From assembly GCF_014323725.1 (NCBI RefSeq), contig NZ_JABVED010000014.1, positions 62,001 to 126,000 of the forward strand: a stretch of DNA of 64,000 nucleotides, read 5' to 3'. The notes beneath the pieces were generated by a model. That model did not search any database. It had not been told where the DNA came from and was given only the letters and a program-made list of their open reading frames with translations. The DNA is from Actinokineospora xionganensis (lineage in GTDB: Bacteria; Actinomycetota; Actinomycetes; Mycobacteriales; Pseudonocardiaceae). The position numbers were made by a program, and so were the translations under genes. Shown here one piece after another: positions 18,541 to 23,452 of this stretch. How positions within the stretch are numbered: the first letter of the stretch is position 1; each line of letters begins with the position of its first letter.

Positions 18541-20337
18541 TTGGCCCAGACCTTCGGTGTGAACCTGCGCGGCGTCATCGATCTGCTCAGCCACCATCTC
18601 TACAGCAGCCCCCGCGTCTACCTGCGCGAACTCCTCCAGAACGCGGTCGACGCGGTCACCGCGCGCAGGCTGGGCGACCCGTCGACGCCGGGGCGGATCC
18701 TGATCGAGTCCACCGAGCGGACCGGCAACGGCACCCTGCGGATAACGGACACCGGGATCGGCCTCGACGAGTCCGAGGTGCACTCCCTGCTGTCCACCCT
18801 GGGCGGCACCTCCAAGCGCGACGAGTTGGGGTTCGCCCGGCAGGACTTCCTCGGGCAGTTCGGGGTGGGCCTGCTCTCCTGCTTCCTGGTCGCCGACGAG
18901 GTGCGGTTGGTGAGCCGTTCGGCCAACGGCAGCCCAGCGGTGCGCTGGGTCGCCCACGGCGACGGCACCTACGACGTCGAGGTCGACGACTCCGCCCGCG
19001 CCGAGGTCGGCACGACGGTGGAGCTGGTCCCCCGGCGCGACTGCGACCACTGGGCCGAGTACGACACGGTGGCGATGCTGGCCGCCGAGTTCGGGTCGCT
19101 GCTGCCGGTGGAGGTCCGGGTCGCCGGGCCGAACGGGCAGGTGCTGGTCACCGAGGACGAGCTGCCCTGGATCCGCCGCGAGGACGAGTCCGTCGCCCAG
19201 CACCACGACCGGCTGGCCGAGTACTGCCGCGAGACCCTGGGCTTCGAGCCGTTCGACGTGGTGCCGCTGGAGTTCGGCGCGGTCGGGCTGACCGGAGCGG
19301 CGTTCGTGCTGCCGGCGGGCGCCAACCCGGGGACCCGGCAGGCGCACCGGGTGTACCTCAAGCGGATGCTCGTGGGCACCTCGATCGAGGGCCTGCTGCC
19401 CGACTGGGCCTACTTCGTCCGCTGCGTGGTCGACACGTCGGCGCTGCGCCCGACGGCGAGCCGTGAATCCCTCTATGAGGACGAGACGCTGCTGGCCGTG
19501 CGCGACGCGCTGGGCACCCGGCTGCGCGACTGGCTGCTGCGGCTGGACGCGACCGAGCCGGAGCGGGCGGCCTCGATGCTGGCCGCGCACCAGCTAGGCA
19601 TCAAGTCCGTCGCCCTGGTCGACGACGAGCTGCTGCGCCTGGCCGAGCGGTGGGTGCCGTTCGAGACGACCCGGGGCACGATGCCGCTGCGCCAGTTCCG
19701 CCGCGGCCACGCCACCGTGCTCTACACCCCCGACGTCGACGAGTTCCGTCAGCTCGCCCCGGTGGCCCGGGCTCAGGGCATCGGCCTGGTCAACGCCGGC
19801 TACGCCTACGACACGGAGCTGCTCAAGCGGCTGGCCGCCCTCGACGGCGCCAACACCGCGCGCCGGGTGGAGCCCTCGGAGTTGCTGGCCGCCCTGGGCA
19901 GGCCCAACGCCCAGGTCGAGGCGACGATGAAGCGGACCATGTCGGTGGCGTCGAAGGTCCTCGACGGCCACGACTGCGAGCCCATGCTGCGCGACTTCGA
20001 CCCGGTGTCGCTGCCCGCGCTGCTGGTGGCCGACGCCGGCGGCGCGCGCAGGCGCGACACCGCCGAGGCCCGGGAGACCGCGGACCCCCTGTGGCAGGAC
20101 CTCCTGGGCAGGCTGGTGGACGCCGACTCGGGCGCCGCGCAACAGCTGGTCTTGAACACGCGCAACCCGCTGGTGGCCCGCCTCGCCGGGATCGACGACC
20201 CGACGCTGTTGGAGACGGCCGTGCTCGCGCTGTACGTCCACGCGCTGCTGCAGTCGCACCGCCCGCTGCGCCCCAAGGACACCGCGACGCTCAACGGGTC
20301 CTTCCTGGACCTGCTGGACCGCGCGATCGGCGACTGA
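18541..20337 (+). CDS. Hsp90-like GHKL ATPase
   Basis: A 598-residue protein related to HtpG but divergent. The GHKL nucleotide site is intact: LRELLQNAVDA gives Glu30, Asn34 and Asp37; ITDTGIGL (68-75) is the DxGxG loop; LGQFGVGLLSCF (104-115) is the glycine lid. The middle domain keeps VYLKRMLV, FVRCVVDTSAL and the catalytic-loop TASRESLYED (about 304-313). The C-terminal part is shorter than in HtpG and lacks a recognisable dimerisation domain. The start is TTG at 18541 with GAGG upstream. It is followed after 9 nt by a large TPR protein, a pairing that suggests a dedicated chaperone and co-factor. Function not known. Confidence 0.85.
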   Translation: MAQTFGVNLRGVIDLLSHHLYSSPRVYLRELLQNAVDAVTARRLGDPSTPGRILIESTERTGNGTLRITDTGIGLDESEVHSLLSTLGGTSKRDELGFARQDFLGQFGVGLLSCFLVADEVRLVSRSANGSPAVRWVAHGDGTYDVEVDDSARAEVGTTVELVPRRDCDHWAEYDTVAMLAAEFGSLLPVEVRVAGPNGQVLVTEDELPWIRREDESVAQHHDRLAEYCRETLGFEPFDVVPLEFGAVGLTGAAFVLPAGANPGTRQAHRVYLKRMLVGTSIEGLLPDWAYFVRCVVDTSALRPTASRESLYEDETLLAVRDALGTRLRDWLLRLDATEPERAASMLAAHQLGIKSVALVDDELLRLAERWVPFETTRGTMPLRQFRRGHATVLYTPDVDEFRQLAPVARAQGIGLVNAGYAYDTELLKRLAALDGANTARRVEPSELLAALGRPNAQVEATMKRTMSVASKVLDGHDCEPMLRDFDPVSLPALLVADAGGARRRDTAEARETADPLWQDLLGRLVDADSGAAQQLVLNTRNPLVARLAGIDDPTLLETAVLALYVHALLQSHRPLRPKDTATLNGSFLDLLDRAIGD

Positions 20338-20346
20338 GAGCAGAGT

Positions 20347-23145
20347 ATGTCCACGTCAGAGCCCGACGAGTCCCGTGACCGTGTCGCGCACATGGTGCAC
20401 GCGACCGAATCGATGCCCGCGGGCCAAGCCAAGTGCGAGGCGCTGGAGCGAGCGGCGCGCGCGGCCGACGCGGCGGGCTTCACCGACTACGCCGTCGCAG
20501 CCCGGCTGGTCCTGGTCAACGCCTACCGGGAGATCCGCCGCTACGACCTGATGCTCACCCCGTTCGCCTGGCTGCGCACCACCGAGCGGCTGCACCCGGA
20601 GGCCTTCGACGAGTGGGCGCTGCACCAGTTCAACTGGATGCACAAGTGGCTGCCGACGGGTCTGCTCGGCGATCCACGGTTCAGCCTGGAGCAGATCGGC
20701 TCCGTGGTGGAGGAACTCGCCGAGCGCTACCGGCAGCAGGGGTATTCGCTGCATCCGGTGCACGACAAGCTGCGCGCGGTCGCCCACCACATCGGCGACA
20801 CGGAGGCCGCGGACGCGCACTTCGCCGCGTGGCGGGCGGCGGAGCCGGACGAGATGAGCGACTGCGCGGCGTGCGTCGTGGACAGCCAGGTCGGGTACTT
20901 CGTCTCCCGCAAGCGGTTCACCGAAGCCATCGACGCGGCCGGCTCGGTGCTCACCGAGCCGTCGGACTGCGCCGAGCAGCCGCACGGGGTGATGGCGTCG
21001 CTGCTGGAGGCATACCTCGCCACCGGCAGGCTCGATGAGGCCGCCCACGCGCACCTGGTGTCGTACCGGGTGGTGCGCGACACCCCGCAGGCCCGGTCGG
21101 CGCTGCACGCGCACCTGCGGTTCTGCGCGCTGACCGGCAACGCCGCGCGCGGGCTGGACATCCTGAGCCGCAACCTCGACGTGCTCGCCGGCCCGCCCAG
21201 CCCGAAGGTGCGCCAGGACTTCGCGGCCGCCGCCGCCCTGCTGCTGAGCCGGGTCCCCGACCGCGCGGACCGGATGTTCCGGCTCGGCGAGCAGGCGCTC
21301 ACCGGCGAGGAGCTGTGGGCGCACTGCGTCGAGACAGCGCGCGGCACGGCGAAGAAGTTCGACGAGCGCAACGGGACCGACGCCGCGAGTCGCCGGGTCG
21401 AGGAGACCCTGGCGCTGCCCGACGCCGAGCCGATCGTGCTCGCTGTGCCGGGAACCGTTGTCCCGCTTAGGGATTCCGATCCGGAGGACCTGGCCGACCC
21501 GGTGGACGTCGCCGAGCGCGCGTGCGTCGCGATGGACGGCGGCAGCCTGTTCACCGGGGCCCGGCTACTGGCCGCGCTGCCCGCCGACCTCGACGGTCTG
21601 CTGCCCGACGGGCTCGCCGCCCGGGTCGCCGTGCACCGCACCTGGCTCGCGCGCCGCGCCAGGCCTGAGGAGCTGATCGACAGCCTCAACGGCATCCTCG
21701 TGCGGCTCACCGCCGCGGGTGAGGACGCGGCGGCGGCGCGGCTGCACTCGTTCCTCGCCGACCTGCTGAGTTCGGTCGAACGGCCCGACGACGCCGCCGA
21801 GCACGCGCGCCTGGCCCTGGAGATCTCCCGCCGCGTGGGCGACCCGATCGGGGTCATGCGGGCCCACCTGGCCACGGCGGACCTGCTCGCCGAAACCGAT
21901 CCGGAACGCGCTTCGTCCGAAGTGGACGAAGCCGAGCGGATCGCCGTCGCGCAGGCGCCGAACCGGCTCGGCGGCGTCCGCAAGGCACGCGCGGAACTGT
22001 TGGAGCGCAAGGGAGACCTTGAAGGCTCGCTGAAGATCATCGAGGCGCTCGCGGCCGACGCCGACCGGTGGCCGGAGTCGACCCGGCTCGCGGTGAGCGG
22101 CCACCGGGCGCGGCTGCTGGCCAACCTCGGGCGGATCGAGGAGTCCGTCGAGCAGTTCGCGCACTTCGTCGAGGTGGCGCGCACGTACCCGGGGCCGTGG
22201 GTGGCCGAGGCGCTGATGCAGTCGGCGAGCCTGCTCGACCAGACCGACCTCGCCGGATCCCACCTGCCGGTGCTGATCGACGCGGTCGCCGCCGCCCGCA
22301 CCTACCTGACCCCGGGGGCGGTCGGGCAGGCGTGTCTGCACCTGTCTGCGGGGTATCTGGCGGCCGGGCGGGACATCGAGGCGGCGGAGACGCTGGAGGA
22401 AGCGCTGCGGCTGATGCCCACGGCGTTCGTCGGCCCGGTGGCCGACATCCACTACCGGTTGGCCCTGGCGTGCCGAAACCTCGGCGAGTTCGACGGCGCC
22501 GCCAACCACTTCGACGCGGTCCTGGCCACGGCGGACGACGGCGACCACGGCCTGCGCGCCCACGTGCTGTTCCAACTCGGCGACGCCCGGCTCGAACTCG
22601 GGGACTACCCGGGGGCGGCGGCGTCCTTCCGCGAGTCGGCGGCGACGTGGCAGATCGCGGACAACCCGGTGGCGGCGGCGGAATCCCTGGTCAAGCTCGC
22701 ACACGCGGCCGGGTTGGACGACCTGCAGGCGGGCCTGCTGGCGCTGGACGAAGCCGCGAACCTGCTGCCCGACGACTCGGTGCCGGGCGCGTTGGACCAG
22801 CAGGCTGATGTGATCGGGTTCCGGGTGGCGCTGCTGGCCCACCACCAGCGCTTCGCCGAGGCCCTGGAAGTCAACCAGCGCACGGAGGAGTACGCGGTCC
22901 GGTTGGGAAACAGCGAGTGGCATGCCTTCCTGGCCGGCCGCGCGGCCCGGCTGCGGTTGGACCTCGGGCAACTCGCGGCGGCCGAGTCCGATGCCCGGCG
23001 GGCGGCGGCATTGCTGACCGACGACGCCGGGGACGCGACTGTCGGGGCGGTGTTGGGGACATTGGCGCGGACGTTGGAGGAACAGGCGAAAACGGTGGAC
23101 ACCGACCCCCTGGTCCGCGAACTCACCGACCGCCTGTCCCAGTAG
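20347..23145 (+). CDS. Large tetratricopeptide-repeat protein
   Basis: A 932-residue, almost wholly alpha-helical protein rich in Ala, Leu, Asp and Glu with repeated TPR-like helices, for example ALAADADRWPESTRLAV, GQACLHLSAGYLAAGRDIEA and LACRNLGEFDGAANHFDAVL. No enzymatic motif, signal peptide or membrane segment is seen. TPR domains bind protein partners, and eukaryotic Hsp90 co-chaperones are TPR proteins, so the protein may be the client adaptor of the Hsp90-like ATPase encoded 9 nt upstream; that is inference. The ATG at 20347 follows GAGCAGAG. Stop 52 nt before a 56-residue gene that probably belongs to the same transcript. Confidence 0.85.
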   Translation: MSTSEPDESRDRVAHMVHATESMPAGQAKCEALERAARAADAAGFTDYAVAARLVLVNAYREIRRYDLMLTPFAWLRTTERLHPEAFDEWALHQFNWMHKWLPTGLLGDPRFSLEQIGSVVEELAERYRQQGYSLHPVHDKLRAVAHHIGDTEAADAHFAAWRAAEPDEMSDCAACVVDSQVGYFVSRKRFTEAIDAAGSVLTEPSDCAEQPHGVMASLLEAYLATGRLDEAAHAHLVSYRVVRDTPQARSALHAHLRFCALTGNAARGLDILSRNLDVLAGPPSPKVRQDFAAAAALLLSRVPDRADRMFRLGEQALTGEELWAHCVETARGTAKKFDERNGTDAASRRVEETLALPDAEPIVLAVPGTVVPLRDSDPEDLADPVDVAERACVAMDGGSLFTGARLLAALPADLDGLLPDGLAARVAVHRTWLARRARPEELIDSLNGILVRLTAAGEDAAAARLHSFLADLLSSVERPDDAAEHARLALEISRRVGDPIGVMRAHLATADLLAETDPERASSEVDEAERIAVAQAPNRLGGVRKARAELLERKGDLEGSLKIIEALAADADRWPESTRLAVSGHRARLLANLGRIEESVEQFAHFVEVARTYPGPWVAEALMQSASLLDQTDLAGSHLPVLIDAVAAARTYLTPGAVGQACLHLSAGYLAAGRDIEAAETLEEALRLMPTAFVGPVADIHYRLALACRNLGEFDGAANHFDAVLATADDGDHGLRAHVLFQLGDARLELGDYPGAAASFRESAATWQIADNPVAAAESLVKLAHAAGLDDLQAGLLALDEAANLLPDDSVPGALDQQADVIGFRVALLAHHQRFAEALEVNQRTEEYAVRLGNSEWHAFLAGRAARLRLDLGQLAAAESDARRAAALLTDDAGDATVGAVLGTLARTLEEQAKTVDTDPLVRELTDRLSQ

Positions 23146-23197
23146 GCCGGACTGACATGATCTTGGCGAGCAGCAAGCCGATGATCAGGAGAGTCCC

Positions 23198-23368
23198 ATG
23201 GCCGAACTCGAGCCGACACCCGCCGACACCACAGCGAAGCCCGACGGGTTCCAGGTGAAAGTTGAGGAATCAGACGTTGTGGTGAACAAGAAGTTCGAAG
23301 ACGAGACCGTCGAGATCACCCTGAACGTGAACCACACGGTCGACGCCGAAGGACCTGAAGAGGATTAG
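23198..23368 (+). CDS. 56-residue acidic protein, last gene of the Hsp90-TPR unit
   Basis: Not a recognised family. ATG at 23198 is preceded by AGGAGAG at a good distance. The protein is short, acidic and has a beta-strand pattern: GFQVKVEESDVVVNKKFEDE then TVEITLNVNHTVDAEGPEED. The alternation KF-EDETVEITLNVNHT loosely resembles the first strands of the p32/Mam33 fold, but the protein is too short for that fold and the resemblance may be chance. It lies 52 nt after the TPR gene and directly before a strong terminator. It is probably real given its ribosome binding site, composition and position. Confidence 0.65.
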   Translation: MAELEPTPADTTAKPDGFQVKVEESDVVVNKKFEDETVEITLNVNHTVDAEGPEED

Positions 23369-23382
23369 GGTCAGGTCATCGG

Positions 23383-23413
23383 GGCCCCGAGTCGCCACAC
23401 GCGGCTCGGGGCC
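23383..23413 (+). terminator. Intrinsic terminator after the Hsp90-TPR unit
   Basis: GGCCCCGAG (23383-23391) pairs perfectly with CTCGGGGCC (23405-23413) around a 13-nt loop and is followed by ATCTTCCT. It lies 15 nt after the 56-residue gene and 40 nt before the end of the convergent alkylation-repair gene, so it may serve both. Confidence 0.75.
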
Positions 23414-23452
23414 ATCTTCCTGGCCCCCGATCGGACAGGTGTCGCGAACCTG

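Follow-up and report, generated by a model that had tools for sequence, protein, structure and literature searches.

A non-HtpG Hsp90 and a helical-repeat partner encoded as a conserved gene pair in Actinokineospora xionganensis and other bacteria

Eukaryotic Hsp90 is served by co-chaperones built on tetratricopeptide repeats (TPRs), among them Hop, FKBP51/52, PP5 and UNC45. For bacteria, PMC6986101 and PMC4428384 hold, respectively, that Hsp90 functions in the absence of co-chaperones and that no co-chaperone has been identified for HtpG, and HtpG of Mycobacterium tuberculosis is reported to associate with DnaJ2 (PMC10269695). Here we describe a two-gene unit from a stretch of 64,000 nucleotides of Actinokineospora xionganensis (contig NZ_JABVED010000014.1, positions 62,001 to 126,000; hereafter the window), in which the gene of an Hsp90-family ATPase of the NF010683 / PRK14083 type (18541..20337, + strand, 598 amino acids, TTG start) is followed, after a gap of 9 nucleotides, by that of a large and apparently dedicated partner protein (20347..23145, + strand, 932 amino acids, ATG start) predicted to consist of two alpha-solenoids. 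The order and spacings that a preliminary description of this DNA had given for these two open reading frames (ORFs), and for a third one of 56 amino acids (23198–23368) that begins 52 nucleotides past the partner, were all recovered. The Hsp90 family is already named in NCBIfam and a Pseudomonas operon has been mentioned in passing; what appears to be new is the combination of an Hsp90 that has no MEEVD tail with a helical-repeat partner whose conserved domain has no family record that we could find. In searches of the open-licence PMC literature (subscription papers lay outside their scope), no account that treats the two genes as one system came up.

Distribution of the gene pair

Both large genes are genuine, and together they make up a unit that is conserved. 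In a survey of 86 loci (the window, 80 loci from genomes and five of 43 further loci, the other 38 being taken as largely repeating the same species), a homologous partner adjoins the Hsp90 gene in 82, spread over at least six gene contexts, and tblastn placed a partner on the same strand in 119 of 123 loci, a set that partly overlaps the first. According to a simple gene caller, 38 of the 82 pairs overlap by 4 nucleotides. What lies beyond the pair varies by clade, with pheS/pheT and rplT/infC in the core group, recG/coaD in Streptomyces and several other arrangements elsewhere (gene names were checked in the window and in locus L131), and most core-group loci have housekeeping surroundings. 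Within the window, pheS and pheT lie upstream of the pair on the opposite strand and rplT and infC farther downstream; the closest named relatives at this locus are from Actinokineospora, mostly at 77–79%. Two Chloroflexi loci (L179 and L181) have the gene order reversed and a partner of 366 residues that corresponds to the N-terminal domain of the window protein (hereafter the N-domain) alone. Two of the records, titled Rhodococcus rhodnii NRRL B-16535 (L147) and Nocardia sp. NRRL S-836 (L172), resemble Kibdelosporangium and Lentzea, respectively, in this region, and their names may be wrong.

Across 200 genomes of the family, the Hsp90 was found in 61, the N-domain in 69 and both in 61; the 139 genomes without the Hsp90 comprised 131 that had no N-domain either and 8 that had one. 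The two genome lists were taken to describe the same 200 genomes because their handles agree, genome G416 was left out of the count (its match, a contig-edge fragment of 129.5 bits and 32% identity, was read as HtpG-like), and the searches scored some first-look candidates per genome, with misses possible. Among 296 genomes of the phylum, ten carried the Hsp90 above the cut-off and twelve the N-domain, that is, all ten plus two of the other 286, and the Hsp90 search of 14 control genomes gave six with a match, two of them above the cut-off. Loci of HtpG served as a control: with 6-kb flanks, the N-domain was present at none of 20 HtpG loci and at 76 of 80 NF010683-type loci. An earlier control on 20 other HtpG loci, with short stretches past the HtpG gene and two loci cut by contig ends, agrees (0/20 against 10/10 NF010683-type loci, the window among the ten). 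The partner is thus not absent beside most orthologues, which is what the preliminary description had named as grounds for refuting the unit: it stands next to the Hsp90 in 82/86 loci, and its N-domain accompanies the Hsp90 in 61/61 genomes of the family and 10/10 of the phylum.

The sequences also indicate that the two proteins diverged together. For 44 pairs, hand-picked to be widely spread and without five loci whose genes are cut or decayed, the distance correlation between the Hsp90 and N-domain trees was 0.927, against a best value of 0.36 in 2000 permutations; the trees agree in their main clades, and paralogous Hsp90s keep paralogous partners.

Searches of plasmid and phage collections with the Hsp90 alone, the partner not being used, led to loci in Paenibacillus and Listeria. 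The Paenibacillus gene directly downstream of the Hsp90 encodes 353 residues, overlaps it by 4 nucleotides and matches the N-domain profile at 226 bits, while the one directly downstream in Listeria encodes 324 residues (208 bits) and is followed by a second copy (207 bits). This tandem of N-domain proteins (L208:7797-9765) stands behind a non-HtpG Hsp90 and beside fri, and one of the two is probably lmo0941. Signatures of selection are reported for lmo0941 in PMC6901971. Two records of the plasmid collection, NZ_CP131792.1 and NZ_LR134399.1, look chromosomal in this region, where they carry queG, liv/bra-type transport genes and a Na+/H+ antiporter gene.

More distant forms occur in Pseudomonas aeruginosa, Xanthomonas and Salmonella, in which a full-length Hsp90 relative (hhalign 100%, 558 columns) is directly followed by a protein of about 770 residues. 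The latter has a CxxC at a place matching that of the N-domain; the N-domain's FDxRNG motif and third cysteine (see below) are not found at matching places. From its gene order, we take the Pseudomonas copy to be PA1068/PA1069; some literature matches to these designations proved to be strain names and not genes. A passing remark in PMC4053335 has PA1069 as apparently operonic with an Hsp90 gene. Each of the two Salmonella-type genes is present in 245 of 5426 complete Escherichia coli genomes; the two were seen to be neighbours in one genome, where they stand between fdhD and yiiG/rha, and their coordinates imply the same for a second (NZ_CP014111.1). The genes are chromosomal in these E. coli genomes, and the site inspected (L246:7001-11144) lies beside remnants of the frv operon. 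On a Pseudanabaena plasmid (L209:5932-10795), the gene of an 877-residue Hsp90-like protein comes before those of a small protein and of a TPR protein with a weak match (12 bits) to the N-domain profile; genes for a TIR-domain protein and for a large helicase adjoin this cluster.

The two proteins and the end of the locus

The window Hsp90 matches the NCBIfam model NF010683 ('HSP90 family protein') over residues 1–596 with 777.9 bits (cut-off 455), and its 167 bits against the HtpG model NF003555 lie under the cut-off of 371. All 28 Hsp90 rows in an alignment of relatives, a set that spans at least three phyla, match NF010683 at E ≤ 1e-20, and a sequence relative in the PDB is TRAP1 (E 1.9e-29). 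Glu30, Asn34 and Asp37, Asp70/Gly72/Gly74 of the DTGIG motif, Gly105/Phe107/Gly108/Gly110 of GQFGVG and Arg308 of the SRE loop are invariant across these 28 relatives, and Ser307 and Glu309 of the same loop are conserved in at least 90% of them. As had been noted before, then, the protein holds, by its sequence, the Bergerat-fold ATPase residues and the catalytic arginine of the middle domain. The "reduced C-terminus" previously ascribed to it did not survive closer comparison: the alignment to the HtpG profile covers positions 3–599 of 614, the predicted structure has N, middle and C-terminal parts in an Hsp90 fold, about 490–540 of its residues align with full-length TRAP1, HtpG and Hsp90 chains, and the match to HtpG chain 9a6t_B (residues 5–626; Z 26.4, root-mean-square deviation 6.7, 532 residues aligned) extends into the C-terminal domain. 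Judged from profile and model, the C-terminal region is diverged and not missing.

The AlphaFold2 model of the partner, made with 27 sequences (predicted local distance difference test 92.8, predicted template modelling score, pTM, 0.85), has an N-terminal helical domain at about residues 7–355 (20365..21411, + strand), a short linker and a second solenoid at about residues 385–931 (21499..23139, + strand), the latter with matches to TPR_12 and other Pfam models. The best Pfam TPR stretches are at about 670–786 and helical repeats make up almost the whole of the predicted structure, in agreement with the 932-residue TPR protein of the preliminary description. For the C-terminal half, the best structural match is the LGN TPR chain 3sf4_C (Z 23.7, root-mean-square deviation 3.9, 328 residues aligned, model residues 540–872). 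The N-domain of the window protein has no Pfam match, and Pfam TPR-type models each match at most 3 of 29 N-domain relatives. When its sequence profile was run against the PDB, TPRs both natural and designed matched weakly at profile positions of about 180–290, in the second half of the domain, with a designed protein as the best match (E 2.4e-7). Given that the structural match lists of both models barely cover the N-domain, we do not call its fold new; on its sequence it is best called a divergent, distantly TPR-like domain of about 350 residues.

The conserved core of the N-domain carries C173xxC176, C208 and FDxRNG (338–343). Within the 29 N-domains, F338, D339 and R341 are invariant, N342 is present in 28 and G343 in 27, and each of the three cysteines is found in 28, the exception (L104) being without all three. 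The ten orphan N-domain proteins that were aligned over the cysteine region either keep all three cysteines (L225, L233 and L234) or have none (L226–L232), and the paired N-domain protein L240 keeps all three; no intermediate state was seen among the 29 N-domains, the ten orphans and L240. This all-or-none behaviour would fit a metal site or a linked redox site. In L125, and in those loci of Listeria, Paenibacillus and Chloroflexi that were seen, the paired partner consists of the N-domain alone (320–374 residues). Orphan partner paralogues (L225–L239) have 543–922 residues and no neighbouring NF010683 Hsp90, and genus g214 has further-diverged orphan paralogues in genomes in which no such Hsp90 was found.

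The third ORF (23198..23368, + strand) is possibly translated, has a Shine-Dalgarno-like AGGAG and encodes an acidic product. It appears genome-specific: at 123 related loci tblastn gave no same-strand relative with E < 1, and searches of 120 family and 197 class genomes gave none in the other 119 (E below 0.4) or the other 196 (E ≤ 0.01). We therefore rule it out as part of the unit, and of the three-protein unit envisaged at the outset, the Hsp90 and its TPR partner stand and the small acidic protein drops out; it may still be a real small gene. Its match to MAM33 (mitochondrial p32-like; 22.4 bits, gathering threshold 21.9) covers positions 19–70 of 212 only (52 positions), and membership of that family was rejected because a full-domain match is absent. 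Farther on, at 23383..23413 (+ strand), lies a strong GC hairpin without a T-run, a possible transcription end, which is very stable (-45.3 kcal/mol for 23366–23430, z -6.1). A terminator scan of the region returned no terminator, and the single terminator once placed after the three ORFs could not be upheld.

A candidate two-component chaperone machine and its alternatives

Probably, in our view, the locus encodes a two-component chaperone machine made of an NF010683-type Hsp90 and a dedicated co-chaperone. The Hsp90 would be an ATP-driven clamp, made together with its own co-chaperone. Since the N-domain is the part common to partners of three phyla, it would be the one that acts on the Hsp90, with its cysteine set and FDxRNG motif, and the variable C-terminal TPR superhelix, where present, would recruit clients or other proteins to the clamp, its predicted shape being like that of peptide- and cargo-binding TPRs. 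Such a pair may amount to the new client-specific machine that the preliminary description had imagined. More broadly, and here we stop a little short of calling it probable, bacteria may own an old, independently evolved family of Hsp90 co-chaperones, in which a compact and distantly TPR-like helical domain, its cysteine set probably a metal site or a redox switch, controls a non-HtpG Hsp90 and to which lineages add client-choosing TPR superhelices. If so, the family would span Actinomycetota, Bacillota and Chloroflexota, with a divergent form in gamma-proteobacteria, and would contradict the claim that in bacteria Hsp90 lacks co-chaperones.

Several observations weigh against such a machine. 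Four of the 86 loci (L127–L130, which are also the four misses among the 80 NF010683-type loci of the control) have an Hsp90 without a neighbouring partner; that of L130 is decayed, with two stops, and L125, from the same genus and with similar surroundings, keeps a 374-residue N-domain. Eight of the 69 N-domain genomes have no Hsp90 and orphan N-domains elsewhere lie away from it, so that the N-domain can act alone, and the three orphans that keep the cysteines come from genomes in which no NF010683 Hsp90 was found, which speaks against a simple link of the cysteines to the Hsp90. The Fisher p of 5e-43 for the co-occurrence in 200 genomes ignores shared ancestry, and the fecal scaffold L212 is placed differently in the Hsp90 and N-domain trees. 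None of the 85 readable Hsp90 C-termini of the 86 loci (that of L130 being decayed) ends in EEVD as a MEEVD-type tail would. The relationship of the gamma-proteobacterial partner to the N-domain is weak (hhalign probability 82%, E 1.1e-5; at most 9.2 bits with HMMER), and we treat the two as possible homologues only. A model of Hsp90 and N-domain as one joined chain (pTM 0.59) gave no confident docking, and a complex is therefore not claimed. The literature searched yielded neither a client nor, from the actinobacterial family, any record of phenotype or expression.

The chief alternative, which we regard as unlikely, exchanges the roles: the partner, a large solenoid receptor, would be the client or effector, and the Hsp90 its private folding chaperone or its gatekeeper, in other words the TPR protein would do the work and the Hsp90 would be a maintenance factor. 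Hsp90 serves NLR immune receptors in an analogous way. That the Hsp90 is rarely without the partner, that the partner domain occurs without the Hsp90 in the eight genomes mentioned and that orphan N-domain paralogues exist all speak for this reading, and long solenoids are plausible as difficult ones. However, where the partner is the N-domain alone, as in Listeria, Paenibacillus, Chloroflexi and L125, a long solenoid cannot be the sole reason for the Hsp90, and partner-type genes survive without it. Improbable, to our mind, is a role of the Hsp90 as an ATP-driven switch in a solenoid-based signalling or scaffold complex, possibly metal- or redox-responsive via the cysteines, which would suit their being kept or lost together. 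The failure to find a heat-shock operator (HspR/HAIR or HrcA/CIRCE) in 17 upstream regions of 260 nucleotides, with 4 or 5 mismatches allowed, can be read in the same sense; two alternative-sigma patterns sought upstream of the 17 loci gave one chance-like match only. Data on PA1069 also lean towards a switch: it goes down (log2 -1.98) while htpG goes up (+2.83) in one heat-shock transcriptome (PMC4957987), and it is reported as induced by Ca2+ and/or biofilm growth (PMC4053335) and as changed on surfaces (PMC5541441). These expression data, however, come from a distant relative, profile searches of both proteins found no signalling domain in the unit, and the Hsp90 has kept each of its three domains and every ATPase residue. 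PA1069 also figures in a BatR co-immunoprecipitation list (PMC13411936).

The co-chaperone reading must also be set against two explanations to which we give very little credence. One is that the two genes, functionally unconnected, are adjacent simply because this part of the chromosome is conserved. The pheST-infC neighbourhood is indeed widely conserved in core Pseudonocardiaceae, but the two genes stay together where the context is unrelated and also outside the phylum, even in reversed order in L179 and L181, and both the genome-by-genome co-occurrence and the negative HtpG control count against this idea, which the changing gene contexts already contradict. The other, an anti-phage or other defence system, we find barely plausible; it draws on the accessory distribution in E. 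coli (245/5426), on copies of the pair type on Streptomyces and Xanthomonas plasmids and on three phage-collection records with this Hsp90, namely a fecal scaffold of 6.6 kb, unverified, that carries the pair (L212) and two Listeria fragments of 1.5 kb each. These records are short and have no recognised phage gene and so may be, and probably are, host DNA. PADLOC gave only partial generic ATPase matches for the Hsp90 (best 31.4 bits, residues 12–130, to a model of 1655 positions) and no match for the partner or the 56-residue ORF, a scan of IMG/VR with the 28-row Hsp90 alignment gave six short generic ATPase matches and no close relative, and no gene annotated as defence was present at the one E. 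coli site inspected. Together with the housekeeping surroundings in most of the core group and the 17 upstream regions without a HAIR or CIRCE operator, these results give no support to the stress or defence role that had been suggested for the locus.

Comparison with known systems

The nearest record is NF010683 / PRK14083, of which the window Hsp90 is a full member; the model covers the Hsp90 alone, and the partner and the pairing fall outside it. HtpG has the three-domain architecture and the ATPase residues in common with the window Hsp90, and differs in that its model scores the latter below cut-off and that its loci have no partner (0/20). The PA1068/PA1069-type pair is alike in having a full-length Hsp90 relative directly upstream of a partner with a matching CxxC, and differs in the weak relation of that partner and in its unmatched FDxRNG and third cysteine. 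Peptide-binding TPR superhelices such as LGN/Pins have the same predicted fold as the C-terminal half of the partner, a likeness of the repeat fold only that does not imply functional identity.

The pairing suggests that some bacteria own dedicated Hsp90 helper proteins, though bacterial Hsp90 is usually said to need none. A dedicated partner found across phyla would offer a simple two-component system for studying how a partner steers the Hsp90 cycle and the choice of clients; the minimal partners of about 320–374 residues are convenient for biochemistry, and a divergent unit is at hand in part of E. coli. The Hsp90-TPR systems of eukaryotes resemble the pair in joining an Hsp90 to a helical-repeat partner. 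They differ from it in that the window-type Hsp90 is without MEEVD and that the conserved domain of the window partner is without a Pfam match. No sequence sign of a common origin was seen between the two, and the pair also bears on whether partnerships between Hsp90 and solenoid proteins arose more than once.

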